Source: a virus. From it: 39,982 nt of DNA. Shown in pieces: positions 18,926 to 34,256 of the stretch (its first letter is position 1; each line of letters opens with the position of its first letter). The notes below the pieces were generated by a model. That model was given only the letters and a program-made list of their open reading frames with translations, ran no database searches and was not told the origin of the DNA. The stretch is from positions 1 to 39,982 of the IMG/VR virus record IMGVR_UViG_3300009551_000031; one strand, written 5' to 3'. Position numbers and translations under genes: made by a program.

Positions 18926-18955
18926 ATGCTTTTCGGAGGCAATAGGGCATATGCC
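18892..18955. promoter_or_regulatory. Divergent control region with CATATGC repeats
   Basis: A 13-bp direct repeat (TAAGACATATGCT) occurs at 18900-18912 and 18918-18930. A perfect palindrome GGCATATGCC lies at 18946-18955, over the start codon of the RHH-like gene. A rightward promoter is plausible: TTGCTT (18892-18897), 17 bases, ATATAA (18915-18920), with GGAGG at 18935-18939. The three CATATGC sites are good candidates for operators of the neighbouring RHH-like protein (inference). Confidence 0.5.
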
Positions 18956-19160
18956 AAATAATGCAGGGTTGGCCGTGAAAGGCACATGCGATACCGCGTC
19001 GCGCGTGGGCAGGCGCATGGAATACCCCGATAAGCGGGAGGCGGCGTTCAAGCCGGGGACGCTGGATCGTATCCAAGCCGCGCTGCGTGACGATGAAACG
19101 CAAGTCGGCTTCATCCGAGAGGCTGTTGAGCGCGAGCTAGAACGGCGCTCAAAGGGCTGA
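18951..19160 (+). CDS. Ribbon-helix-helix-like small DNA-binding protein
   Basis: A 69-residue protein. The C-terminal half (FKPGTLDRIQAALRDDETQV, then GFIREAVERELERRS) has a strand-helix-helix pattern typical of Arc/CopG/MetJ-type repressors. A later ATG at 19018 would give the core alone. GGAGG lies 11 bases upstream of the chosen start. It is encoded between the T5orf172 gene and attP. It might control integration or excision, itself, or the divergent gene; a recombination directionality factor is also possible. Confidence 0.65.
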   Translation: MPNNAGLAVKGTCDTASRVGRRMEYPDKREAAFKPGTLDRIQAALRDDETQVGFIREAVERELERRSKG

Positions 19161-19174
19161 CGATCCCGCGCAAA

Positions 19175-19663
19175 GTGGGCAAAATAGTGGGCAGTAACCC
19201 GTTCTACTGAGGAGGGTTCGAATCCCACCCTCTCCGCCAACACTCTTTCGCCGGGGTTCGCTGGCGACCGCAATTCCCTCCCGTAAATCAATTTTCGTTC
19301 CACTGGCGTTCGCTTGCGTTCGCTGGCTTGCGCGGTCCATACGTGGGCAAACAGTGGGCAGAGAATCGCACAGTGGGCAGATTGACCGCTCGGAAGGTGG
19401 AAACGACCACAGCGCCAGGGCGATATTCTGATGGTGATGGCTCTGGTTTTCACCTGCGAGTCACCTCGGATGGAGGCAAATACTTCGTCCTGCGTACGAC
19501 GGTTGAGGGCACGCGGAAGGACTTCACGCTCGGCTCGGCAAAGCGCGTTACCCTCGCAGTGGCGCGACAGAAGGCCGCGAAAATCCAAGAACAGATCGAC
19601 ACCAATGGCACAGTTTTGCCCACGGAGATGCCCACTTTCGCTGAGGCTGCTCGTTCTGCCCAC
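19175..19663. repeat. Cluster of GTGGGCA heptamers around attP (candidate integrase arm sites)
   Basis: GTGGGCA occurs at 19175-19181, 19187-19193, 19343-19349, 19354-19360 and 19373-19379. The inverted form occurs at 19617-19623, 19629-19635 and 19657-19663. Another forward copy lies at 19005-19011. The paired sites are 11-12 bp apart, about one helical turn. They flank the core on both sides and run into the integrase gene. Such clusters are expected for arm-type sites bound by the integrase N-terminal domain (inference). Confidence 0.6.
19211..19239 (+). other. attP core: copy of a tRNA-Ser 3' end
   Basis: The 29 bases contain a T-arm (GGGTTCGAATCCC) and acceptor half ending CTCTCCGCCA, the normal 3' end of an alphaproteobacterial tRNA-Ser. 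No 5' half is present, so this is not a tRNA gene. Tyrosine integrases of temperate phages commonly use tRNA 3' ends, and the phage copy restores the gene after integration. The integrase begins about 90 bases downstream. The exact left edge of the identity block cannot be set without the host sequence. Confidence 0.85.
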
Positions 19664-20542
19664 AAGGCGCTGACCACTGGGTTGAAGAACAATAAACACA
19701 AGGCGCAATGGCTCTCCACCTTGGAAACCTACGCTTTCCCGATTGTGGGCGATAAGCTGGTCAACCAGGTCGAGCGGGCGCATGTCGTCCAGATCCTTTC
19801 GCCGATATGGCTCGACAAGCGAGAAACGGCCGACCGGACATTGCAGCGCATTGATCGCGTGATGAGTTGGGCCGTAGGCAACGACTATCGCAACAGCCGC
19901 GTGGACATGAGACTGGTCCGCGATGCACTCCCGCGAAGAAGCAGGCGCAAGCGCTCCGAGATACGTCGTATGCCAGCGGTGCCGTGGGCTGAAGCGCCAG
20001 CCTTTTACACCGCGATCTCGACAAGTCGTAGCGTGGTCGAAGTCCGTCTGGCGATGGCGTTCTACATCCTCACGATCCCAAGGCCGGGGAATATCTATCT
20101 CGCCAAGCGCGGCCAGATCGACTTGGACGACGCTGTGTGGAACATTCCTGGCGAGGAAATGAAAAGCGGAGAGCCGCATCGCATCCCGCTTTCGCCGGCT
20201 GCCGTGGAAGTCGCTCGATCCGTCATGGGTATGCACGATCGCGAACTGCTGTTCGGGGTTTCGGATAAGCCTATGTCGAATGACACGCTCCGAATGATGA
20301 TGCGGCGGATGGGGCGAACCGAAGTGCCGCATGGGTTCCGCTCGACCTTCAAGGATTGGGCGCGCGCGTCCGGCTATCCCGACGATCTCAGCGAGGTTGC
20401 GCTTGCCCATGCCGATCCTAACGAAGTGCGTGCCGCCTATGCCAGAGATGACCTACTCGAAGAGCGGCGCCCTATGATGCTTGCTTGGTCCGAATACTTG
20501 GCAGGGAAGCCGCATAAGCGCGTAGTGACTCCACAGGGATAA
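19328..20542 (+). CDS. int: Tyrosine site-specific integrase
   Basis: 404 residues if the TTG at 19328 is the start; GTG at 19373 or TTG at 19382 would better match the usual opening (LTARKVETTTAPGRYSDGDG). It has the N-terminal DUF4102-like arm-binding domain of P4-type integrases. The catalytic set is R252 (IPRPGN), K279, H335/R338 (HGFRSTFKDWA), H361 (LAHADPN) and Y371 (AAYAR). It catalyses integration at, and with an excisionase excision from, the tRNA-Ser site just upstream. Its 3' end overlaps the convergent excisionase-like gene by 71 bases. Confidence 0.9.
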   Translation: MRGPYVGKQWAENRTVGRLTARKVETTTAPGRYSDGDGSGFHLRVTSDGGKYFVLRTTVEGTRKDFTLGSAKRVTLAVARQKAAKIQEQIDTNGTVLPTEMPTFAEAARSAHKALTTGLKNNKHKAQWLSTLETYAFPIVGDKLVNQVERAHVVQILSPIWLDKRETADRTLQRIDRVMSWAVGNDYRNSRVDMRLVRDALPRRSRRKRSEIRRMPAVPWAEAPAFYTAISTSRSVVEVRLAMAFYILTIPRPGNIYLAKRGQIDLDDAVWNIPGEEMKSGEPHRIPLSPAAVEVARSVMGMHDRELLFGVSDKPMSNDTLRMMMRRMGRTEVPHGFRSTFKDWARASGYPDDLSEVALAHADPNEVRAAYARDDLLEERRPMMLAWSEYLAGKPHKRVVTPQG

Positions 20543-27392: not shown

Positions 27393-28129
27393 TATGCTGC
27401 CTCCGTCTCACGCGACTGAGAAACCATAGGGCGCCCTGTCGCGGTGCAGATCGCCTGCAAATAAGGCTTGTGAAGCGCCCAGAAGTCTAGCGCCTGGGTC
27501 GTATCCATCCGCTCGATGGCGCGATCATCGAAGGCCCACCATTCGACCAGAGAATGCGATTGGCAGCCAATGGTCATCTGATCGTCGGCGATGGTGACGT
27601 GCCACGTCAGGCCCGAAATGCAGATCGGAGAGACCCGCGCATCGCCGTAGACCCACGCATTGCCGGAGACCCACGCATTGCCGTAGACCTGCGCATTGCC
27701 GGAGACCCGCGCATTGCCGTAGACCCGCGCATCGCCGTAGACCTGCGCATTGCCGTAGACCCGCGCATCGCCGTAGACCTGCGCATTGCCGTAGACCTGC
27801 GCATTGCCGTAGACCTGCGCATTGCCGGAGACCCGCGCATCGCCGTAGACCCACGCATTGCCGGAGACCCGCGCATCGCCGTAGACCCACGCATTGCCGG
27901 AGACCCACGCATTGCCGTAGACCTGCGCAAGGTTCTCTTCTTTCTCGACGTAGCCGCCAAGATCGCCAACCGCGACATGAAGACCGATTGCAACCAGAGC
28001 GCGAATGCGGAAGAGCTTTATGCCGCGCCAATCGAGGATGAAGTCATCCTTTACCAGCTCGTACTTTTTGCCCTCGACCGGCTTATCGGCCTTCTTGGTG
28101 CGTGGCTTCTTTGCAGCGGCTTCAGCCAT
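27392..28129 (-). CDS. Hexapeptide-repeat (beta-helix) phage protein
   Basis: A 245-residue protein, the first gene after the proposed PL, with GGGAGG ahead of its ATG. The N-terminal domain (KLFRIRALVAIGLHVAVGDL, GGYVEKEENLAQ) is typical of a family common in phages. Then come about 16.7 six-residue repeats of the form A-[QWR]-V-[YS]-G-[ND] (about residues 68-167), which predict a beta-helix. The C-terminal part (ISGLTWHVTIADDQMTIGC, HSLVEWW) completes the family pattern. The function of this family is unknown. The repeats are encoded by near-identical 18-bp units, so copy number may change. Confidence 0.8.
   Translation of the reverse strand: MAEAAAKKPRTKKADKPVEGKKYELVKDDFILDWRGIKLFRIRALVAIGLHVAVGDLGGYVEKEENLAQVYGNAWVSGNAWVYGDARVSGNAWVYGDARVSGNAQVYGNAQVYGNAQVYGDARVYGNAQVYGDARVYGNARVSGNAQVYGNAWVSGNAWVYGDARVSPICISGLTWHVTIADDQMTIGCQSHSLVEWWAFDDRAIERMDTTQALDFWALHKPYLQAICTATGRPMVSQSRETEAA
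27629..27928 (-). repeat. Tandem 18-bp repeat array in the hexapeptide gene
   Basis: About 16.7 copies of an 18-bp unit, with only a few variable bases (the alternatives encode Q/W/R, Y/S and N/D). The array has no spacers and no palindromic unit, so it is not CRISPR. Slippage or unequal recombination could change its length in steps of six residues without breaking the frame. Confidence 0.95.
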
Positions 28130-28255: not shown

Positions 28256-28582
28256 TTATGACGATCGGCGCGAGTTACGGATCGCCTCGAACACGGCGAC
28301 GGCTTCCGTAACCTCTGCGTCGGTGTAATCGTCTAGGTGGATAACCTGTCCGGCTTTTAGGGGATTTCGCACAAATAGCTGATCGACTTCGGTCTGATAG
28401 ACCTCGGCCAAGGCGTTCAGGACGGGTTCGCTGTAAGGCTGCTTTCCAGCCTCGATCCTGGAGATAGAGGCGGCTGTCGTCGGAAGCTTGGGATCGTCCA
28501 TATAATCCAGCGCGCCAGCCACGTATGCCAAGGTATAACCCTTCGATTCACGCCATTCGCGCAAATATGGTCGCTTTGCCAT
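28256..28582 (-). CDS. XRE-family phage repressor (CI-like)
   Basis: 108 residues from the ATG at 28582; the longer frame to 28675 runs through the operator region and is rejected. The N-terminal ~65 residues form an XRE helix-turn-helix (REWRESKGYTLAYVAGALDY, then AASISRIEAGKQPYSEPVLN, ALAEVY). The C-terminal part is short, with no LexA-type autocleavage domain, so induction must differ from that of lambda CI. It lies back to back with a Cro-like gene and is flanked by four copies of a candidate operator. The likely role is maintenance of lysogeny. Confidence 0.85.
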   Translation of the reverse strand: MAKRPYLREWRESKGYTLAYVAGALDYMDDPKLPTTAASISRIEAGKQPYSEPVLNALAEVYQTEVDQLFVRNPLKAGQVIHLDDYTDAEVTEAVAVFEAIRNSRRSS

Positions 28583-28595
28583 GCCATCGATTCCC

Positions 28596-28610
28596 TTACA
28601 GCGAGCGTAA
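28596..28610. promoter_or_regulatory. Repressor operator candidate O3
   Basis: TTACA-GCGAG-CGTAA, the third copy of the 15-bp pattern. It ends 14 bases before the repressor start codon and could mediate control of the repressor's own gene. Confidence 0.55.
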
Positions 28611-28614
28611 GGGA

Positions 28615-28645
28615 TTATCCCACGGCGTTCCCGGCCATGGGATAA
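28615..28645. promoter_or_regulatory. Second inverted repeat in the immunity region
   Basis: TTATCCCACGG (28615-28625) and CCATGGGATAA (28635-28645) are 10/11 complementary with a 9-base spacer. The element lies between O3 and the proposed PR and differs from the TTACR operators. It may bind another regulator, for example the Cro-like protein, or form an RNA hairpin in the repressor leader. Confidence 0.5.
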
Positions 28646-28664
28646 GGCTGCATGTAAATTGCAG

Positions 28665-28693
28665 TTGACTGTCATGTTACGTCCGGTGTAACA
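28665..28693 (+). promoter_or_regulatory. Proposed rightward early promoter PR with operator O4
   Basis: TTGACT (28665-28670), 16 bases, TGTAAC (28687-28692). The operator TTACG-TCCGG-TGTAA (28677-28691), extended to TGTTAC...GTAACA, covers the spacer and -10 region. The layout mirrors the proposed PL. The cro-like start lies 10 bases beyond the -10, so the message would be leaderless or nearly so. Confidence 0.65.
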
Positions 28694-28702
28694 TCCGGTT
28701 CT

Positions 28703-28891
28703 ATGACGCTAGACGAATACCTCATTGAGCGCTCGCCTAGGCAGCTTTCCGAAGCAACCGGCATCAGCATGGCATCGCTTTCCCGCATTCGCCACCGCAA
28801 GCAGAAGCCGTCAGCTTCAAGCATGGAGCTGATCTGCCTGCATACGGGCGGGAAGGTGACGCCGAACGATCTCCTCGGGATCGCCTGCTAA
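28703..28891 (+). CDS. Cro-like helix-turn-helix protein
   Basis: A 62-residue protein, divergent from the XRE repressor. The helix-turn-helix is clear (RQLSEATGISMASLSRIRHR) and is followed by SMELICLHTGGKVTPNDLLG. Size and place match Cro, which turns off the repressor during lytic growth. There is no good ribosome-binding site, and the start lies close to the proposed transcription start, as in a leaderless message. Its 3' end meets a convergent gene with a four-base overlap. Confidence 0.8.
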   Translation: MTLDEYLIERSPRQLSEATGISMASLSRIRHRKQKPSASSMELICLHTGGKVTPNDLLGIAC

Positions 28892-34116: not shown

Positions 34117-34256
34117 GCGCGCTATCAGGGCCTAGCCCGTGAGGTGATCGTAGATCGCTGGCGCGCCACCCCTCCGAACCCGGCACGCCTCCGCACACTG
34201 AATGAGCACGGTGGGCAGTCCGCGAGGTATCGGAGGGGAATGTTTCAGGAGGTTGC

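Follow-up and report, generated by a model that had tools for sequence, protein, structure and literature searches.

A GTGGGCA repeat array around the tRNA-Ser attP core of a phage: predicted arm-type sites of its P4-type integrase

The GTGGGCA array next to the integrase gene (int) of this phage very probably represents the arm-type binding sites of its own P4-type tyrosine integrase (Int). In the whole stretch of 39,982 bases that was analyzed (the window), five copies of the heptamer form a 2+3 array, with P1/P2 followed by a core derived from tRNA-Ser, then P′1–P′3, and int immediately downstream. The prediction that these five are arm-type sites is strongly supported because they keep fixed offsets from int in related phages, match the annotated layout of phage P4, and belong to a family-wide pattern of TGTGGGNA-like pairs 12 bp apart. 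The array adds a well-supported new case to a known type of arrangement, and its unusual part is the inverted copies inside int. The features of the region are given below in window coordinates, with offsets from the int start; "four phages" denotes the phage of the window and the related viral contigs L006, L262, and L005.

18951–19160, plus strand: 69-aa ORF left of attP, holding the heptamer at 19005; conserved in L262.
19005–19011, plus strand: outlying GTGGGCA, putative site inside the small ORF; kept in L262 with the ORF, absent in L006, which has no such ORF.
19175–19181, plus strand: GTGGGCA, predicted arm-type site P1; offset −207; exact in L006, GTGGGTA in L262.
19187–19193, plus strand: GTGGGCA, predicted arm-type site P2, 12 bp from P1; offset −195; exact in L006 and L262.
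19216–19239, plus strand: attP core GTTCGAATCCCACCCTCTCCGCCA, the 24-bp 3′ end of tRNA-Ser; identical in the four phages.
19256–19262, plus strand: first GTTCGCT repeat, between the core and the P′ sites, in a block identical in the four phages.
19308–19324, plus strand: second and third GTTCGCT repeats (at 19308 and 19318), 10 bp apart; the block CGTTCGCTTGCGTTC is identical in the four phages, and the last bases of the third copy vary.
19343–19349, plus strand: GTGGGCA, predicted arm-type site P′1; offset −39; exact in all four phages.
19354–19360, plus strand: GTGGGCA, predicted arm-type site P′2, 11 bp from P′1; offset −28; exact in all four phages.
19373–19379, plus strand: GTGGGCA, predicted arm-type site P′3, 2 bp before the int start codon; offset −9; exact in all four phages.
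19382–20542, plus strand: int, P4-type tyrosine integrase of 386 aa, TTG start; PF13356, PF22022, PF00589.
19617–19623, minus strand: inverted GTGGGCA in int; offset +235; exact in all four phages.
19629–19635, minus strand: inverted GTGGGCA in int, 12 bp from the copy at 19617; offset +247; exact in the window and L262, one mismatch in L005 and L006.
19657–19663, minus strand: inverted GTGGGCA in int, within CGTTCTGCCCACAAGG; offset +275; exact in all four phages.

An exact search returned the nine heptamers (six forward and three inverted) that the original prediction had described in about 660 bp, with the same coordinates and orientations. The whole window contains 11 copies, against approximately 6 expected from dinucleotide-preserving shuffles (6.2 per 40 kb). 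Nine of the 11 fall within 19005–19663 (659 bp), for which the shuffles gave approximately 0.1, in agreement with the claim that less than one copy would occur there by chance; the only others are at 34211 and 36597. The pairs, claimed to be 11–12 bp apart, measured 12 bp (19175/19187), 11 bp (19343/19354), and 12 bp (19617/19629). Outside this region of the window, tandem repeats in coding sequence bring other 7-mers to as many as 11 local copies, and when the window was modelled by order-2 Markov copies, the top 7-mer count per 660 bp was mostly 5–6, reaching at least 9 in 4 of 60. Since such repeats and Markov copies attain similar local counts, the case rests on the position and conservation of the heptamer and not on its count alone.

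The core GTTCGAATCCCACCCTCTCCGCCA occurs once in the window, and ARAGORN found no complete tRNA there, only the 24-bp tRNA-Ser 3′ end being present. As in P4-type (IntSXT/DUF4102) integrase systems, the core is a tRNA 3′ end located upstream of int, and direct-repeat pairs about one turn apart lie on both sides of it (12 bp on the P side and 11 bp on the P′ side). The heptamers thus flank the tRNA-like core as originally predicted, and the further claim that they run into the integrase gene holds for the three inverted copies. Homology to other integrases sets in at TTG 19382 (LTARKVE), which is therefore the most likely start of int and places the copies at 19343, 19354, and 19373 upstream of the gene; the mechanical ORF start at TTG 19328 was ruled out on the same ground. 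The evidence does not sustain the outlying copy at 19005, which lies in an ORF without a match in Pfam or PHROG, as more than a putative site. An IHF site proposed by eye, AATCAATTTT at about 19287, was rejected, since it does not fit the consensus and the relatives have not retained it. A search for a sigma-70-like promoter at int found none, which counts against the autoregulation proposed below.

The phage integrase belongs to the P4/IntSXT type, in which the DUF4102 domain has been described as the arm-binding domain (PMC8138268). Its N-terminal Arm-DNA-bind_3/DUF4102 domain was detected above the cut-off (PF13356, E 5.5e-14), and the core-binding and catalytic domains were matched by PF22022 and PF00589. 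The catalytic residues R234, K261, H317, R320, H343, and Y353 are invariant across 37 aligned sequences. An AlphaFold2 model of Int (mean pLDDT 88.7) matched lambda Int over its full length, and the modelled N-terminal domain matched the arm-binding domains of P4-like integrases 3rmp (TM 0.87 on the target, 1.7 Å) and 3ju0. Sequence profiles made with Int likewise matched 3jtz/3rmp and 3ju0. The three structures share the arm domain of Int by both profile and fold, with a sequence identity to Int of about 26–31%; the title of PDB entry 3rmp concerns attP recognition by P4-like integrases. The box around R234 (residues 231–241, about 20072–20104) reads TIPRPGNIYLA in the clade of this phage and TAxRSGEVRGA in relatives, the usual glutamate being substituted in the clade.

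The integrases of L006, L262, and L005 are 83–87% identical to that of the window. L006 and L262 retain the P pair at −207/−195 (with one mismatch in L262), and all three contigs retain the P′ triplet at −39/−28/−9. The DNA between the P pair and the core has diverged among these relatives, and the heptamers have been kept. L005 is an attL junction, in which an intact tRNA-Ser(CGA) at 140–229 runs into the shared 24-bp core and then into the P′ side. The P′ sites are retained there and the P pair is absent, with the host tRNA in the place of P2; this absence is expected if integration carried the pair to the other junction. The original prediction had named relatives that keep int and attP but lose the repeats as evidence against it; the comparison with these three phages found the repeats at the same offsets.

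The known systems were compared with this layout. The phage P4 record (NC_001609) annotates six attP arm repeats, GGGGGCA: a pair at 12-bp spacing on each side of the core, an inverted repeat at the int start, and a repeat in int. P4 resembles the window in having an Arm-DNA-bind_3 integrase, a tRNA-end core, a 12-bp arm pair left of the core, an arm pair right of the core ahead of int, a third site at the int start, and an arm copy inside int at the linker before TF. The two differ in the word (GGGGGCA in P4 and GTGGGCA in the window), in the target (tRNA-Leu in P4-like E. coli copies and tRNA-Ser in the window), in the P′ spacing (12 and 11, respectively), in the third site (inverted in P4 and direct in the window), and in the intragenic sites (one direct copy in P4 and three inverted copies in the window). 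A third site near the int start, as P′3, is also present in PBC5 and phiAP1. According to PMC11963761, ICEMlSymR7A likewise has five P/arm-type sites (P1–P5) in a 283-bp attP just upstream of int, all of which are required for efficient integration by IntS, with the site of the directionality factor RdfS directly upstream of P3; from this description we infer that its sites are also split 2+3 around the core. It differs in its consensus, TGKTGGTATC, and in being an integrative conjugative element rather than a phage. The statement that arm-type sites are rarely defined for this integrase type was therefore too strong, given the P4 annotation, the five tested sites of ICEMlSymR7A, and the 3rmp structure. 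A literature search for GTGGGCA with integrase gave no title on such sites among the matches listed.

We examined the pair spacing in 39 non-redundant P4-type loci, leaving out the clade of this phage and judging redundancy roughly on the first 90 residues. An exact direct 7-mer pair at exactly 12 bp was present in the 90 bp before int in 18 of 39 loci, against 0.15 expected from shuffles; spacings of 8–11 and 13–21 bp occurred in 0–2 loci each. In the region −330 to −150, a 12-bp pair was found in 11 of 37 loci (0.6 in the shuffle), and 0–2 were found at this spacing in the controls, which were taken from within int, from its 3′ side, and from far upstream. The pair words are TGTGGGNA-like and vary by clade around a shared consensus, (T/C)G(T/G)GGG(A/T)(A/C), which GTGGGCA fits. 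The P side of the window has the family spacing of 12 and the P′ side has 11. This departure on the P′ side, although shared with phiAP1 and L294, counts against the arm-site reading, as does the finding of exact 12-bp pairs in no more than 18 of the 39 loci. Distant relatives fetched by alignment, with integrases about 40% identical, carry words other than exact GTGGGCA. The word alone is not diagnostic, because PF13356 exceeded its curated cut-off in 1 of 50 whole viral contigs selected for GTGGGCAN4-5GTGGGCA and in 0 of 50 reversed-pattern controls; the pair was accordingly rejected as a marker of P4-type integrases. Further contigs matching the triplet pattern were not members of the clade, except for the three already known.

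In regards to the three inverted copies inside int, comparison of the four phages suggests that they are probably functional in this clade. An alternative is that the five attP sites are arm sites and the intragenic copies a coincidence of codons without a role, which we consider somewhat improbable but a serious possibility. One of the three copies is lost in two of the four phages, and most P4-type integrases have none: among 25 loci searched for their own word, only P4, besides the clade, has a copy near +280, and the P4-like relatives in E. coli keep it in four of six cases and have lost it in two. Against coincidence, all four phages carry the other two copies without mismatch, and the one at 19657 lies in CGTTCTGCCCACAAGG. 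In the 1140 nt of int, just one other stretch of 12 nt or longer is likewise unchanged among the phages; the silent positions of CGTTCTGCCCACAAGG are fixed too, a TCT serine codon among them. The four phages agree in five heptamer codons, for which the chance is approximately 0.005 at amino-acid-specific rates, a modest value from four sequences. L006 has an additional copy at +218, and the copy at 19629 coincides with the linker codons that precede TF, the place of the annotated arm repeat within the P4 int gene.

The identity of the bound protein is a further point on which readings diverge. The att DNA sites of directionality factors are direct repeats spaced by about one helical turn (PMC7498355), and some P′ sites are located where integrase promoters are usually regulated, so that GTGGGCA might be bound by an excisionase or other directionality factor instead of the integrase. 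We consider this very improbable. The word sits at the annotated arm repeats of P4 and varies by integrase clade around one family consensus, and the sites are distributed 2+3 over the two arms, in a manner similar to the Int sites described for ICEMlSymR7A. No Xis-like or AlpA/Vis-like directionality factor gene was recognized by Pfam or PHROGs among the ORFs scanned. A better candidate for the site of such a factor is the GTTCGCT repeats 10 bp apart shortly upstream of P′1, comparable to the RdfS site reported upstream of P3; the three GTTCGCT copies are candidate sites for an excisionase/directionality factor or a bending protein. It is still less credible that the cluster arose by chance or tandem duplication, or that it is a repeat of another kind, for example origin iterons or a repressor operator. 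Similar local counts are attained by tandem repeats in other coding parts of the window, and GTGGGCA clusters occur in other viral contigs with no integrase nearby, but the copies here are unevenly spaced, lie in two orientations, and stay at the same distances from int in divergent phages whose left flanks differ. We therefore retain the assignment of the 2+3 array to the integrase.

A scan for GTGGGCA pairs 11–12 bp apart brought up another group of tyrosine integrases, whose arm domain is Arm-DNA-bind_4 (PF14657). At the 11-bp loci, a tyrosine integrase lay within 500 bp in 19 of 60 cases, compared with 1 of 28 controls. Immediately 3′ of int, 26 of 34 non-redundant Arm-DNA-bind_4 relatives carry a perfect 7-mer pair at a spacing of exactly 11 bp (0.3 expected), with 0–1 at other spacings. 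The word is often, but not always, TGTGGGCA; the seeds were chosen by the GTGGGCA pattern, which biases the share of this word and affects less the spacing in relatives with other words. These integrases (e.g., L075, L353, and L412) resemble the window in often using the same word, with pairs at both attP ends, and differ in the arm domain family, in the 11-bp spacing, and in the position of the pairs 3′ of int rather than upstream. PF14657 had no match in the Int of the window, whose heptamer pairs are upstream of int and not 3′. In loci of this group, including L353, L355, L357, L406, L412, L413, L423, L424, and L430, a second pair often lies about 150–225 bp further on.

Other occurrences of the word were also recorded. 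Dense clusters of GTGGGCA in two orientations, located in AT-rich stretches with no integrase found nearby, are present in the viral contigs L079 (5036–5270), L341 (2805–3263), L343 (1183–1473), L344 (7370–7660), L345 (10411–10692), L351 (5726–6008), and L352 (5103–5401); these are perhaps origins or operators. In a set of related viral contigs, two GTGGGCA copies at a 12-bp spacing precede a third that lies 22 bp further, and the search within 2 kb found no integrase:

L022, position 3455.
L027, position 3503.
L028, position 3826.
L039, position 5501.
L042, position 7096.
L049, position 5088.
L089, position 1610.

Elsewhere in the window, about 300 bp (27631–27929) in an ORF with YdcK beta-solenoid repeats are 92% identical to Acidovorax phage AP1, with 18 matching places in the AP1 record. 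Two divergent HTH genes, one repressor-like (28256–28675, minus strand) and one Cro-like (28703–28891, plus strand), likely form a lysogeny switch.

With the array assigned to Int, we infer that the protein physically binds the heptamers. The Arm-DNA-bind_3 domain would dock on GTGGGCA and the core-binding and catalytic domains would act at the 24-bp core, so that attP would be folded into an intasome for recombination with the tRNA-Ser gene of the host. The array would be divided on integration, with P1/P2 passing to attR and P′1–P′3 remaining at attL beside int. Since P′2 and P′3 extend as far as the start codon of int, occupation of these sites by Int would probably also repress the int gene. 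Negative autoregulation is described for IntS of ICEMlSymR7A (PMC11963761), and integrase autorepression has been reported for PAI I of E. coli 536 (PMC7286903). The inverted copies in int would probably be additional docking sites for Int that strengthen this autoregulation or extend the P′ arm.

Arm sites govern the direction and control of phage integration, and few integrases have had theirs mapped; in the present case the sequence alone is enough to recognize them. The comparison suggests a rule for predicting the arm sites of P4-type integrases, namely TGTGGGNA-like pairs upstream of int at a spacing of exactly 12 bp, and predictable arm sites would be useful for designing a minimal attP in integration vectors. 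The conserved copies inside int raise the small question of whether coding sequence also serves as binding DNA. We tentatively propose, with rather more doubt than confidence, that the clade has extended the array into int as selected inverted sites about 380–450 bp from the core, making int both enzyme code and regulatory or intasome DNA, and, more broadly, that TGTGGGNA-like words with family-specific spacing (12 bp for Arm-DNA-bind_3 and 11 bp for Arm-DNA-bind_4) form a general arm-site grammar. If this is true, such a grammar of word and spacing would make arm sites predictable from sequence across integrase families.
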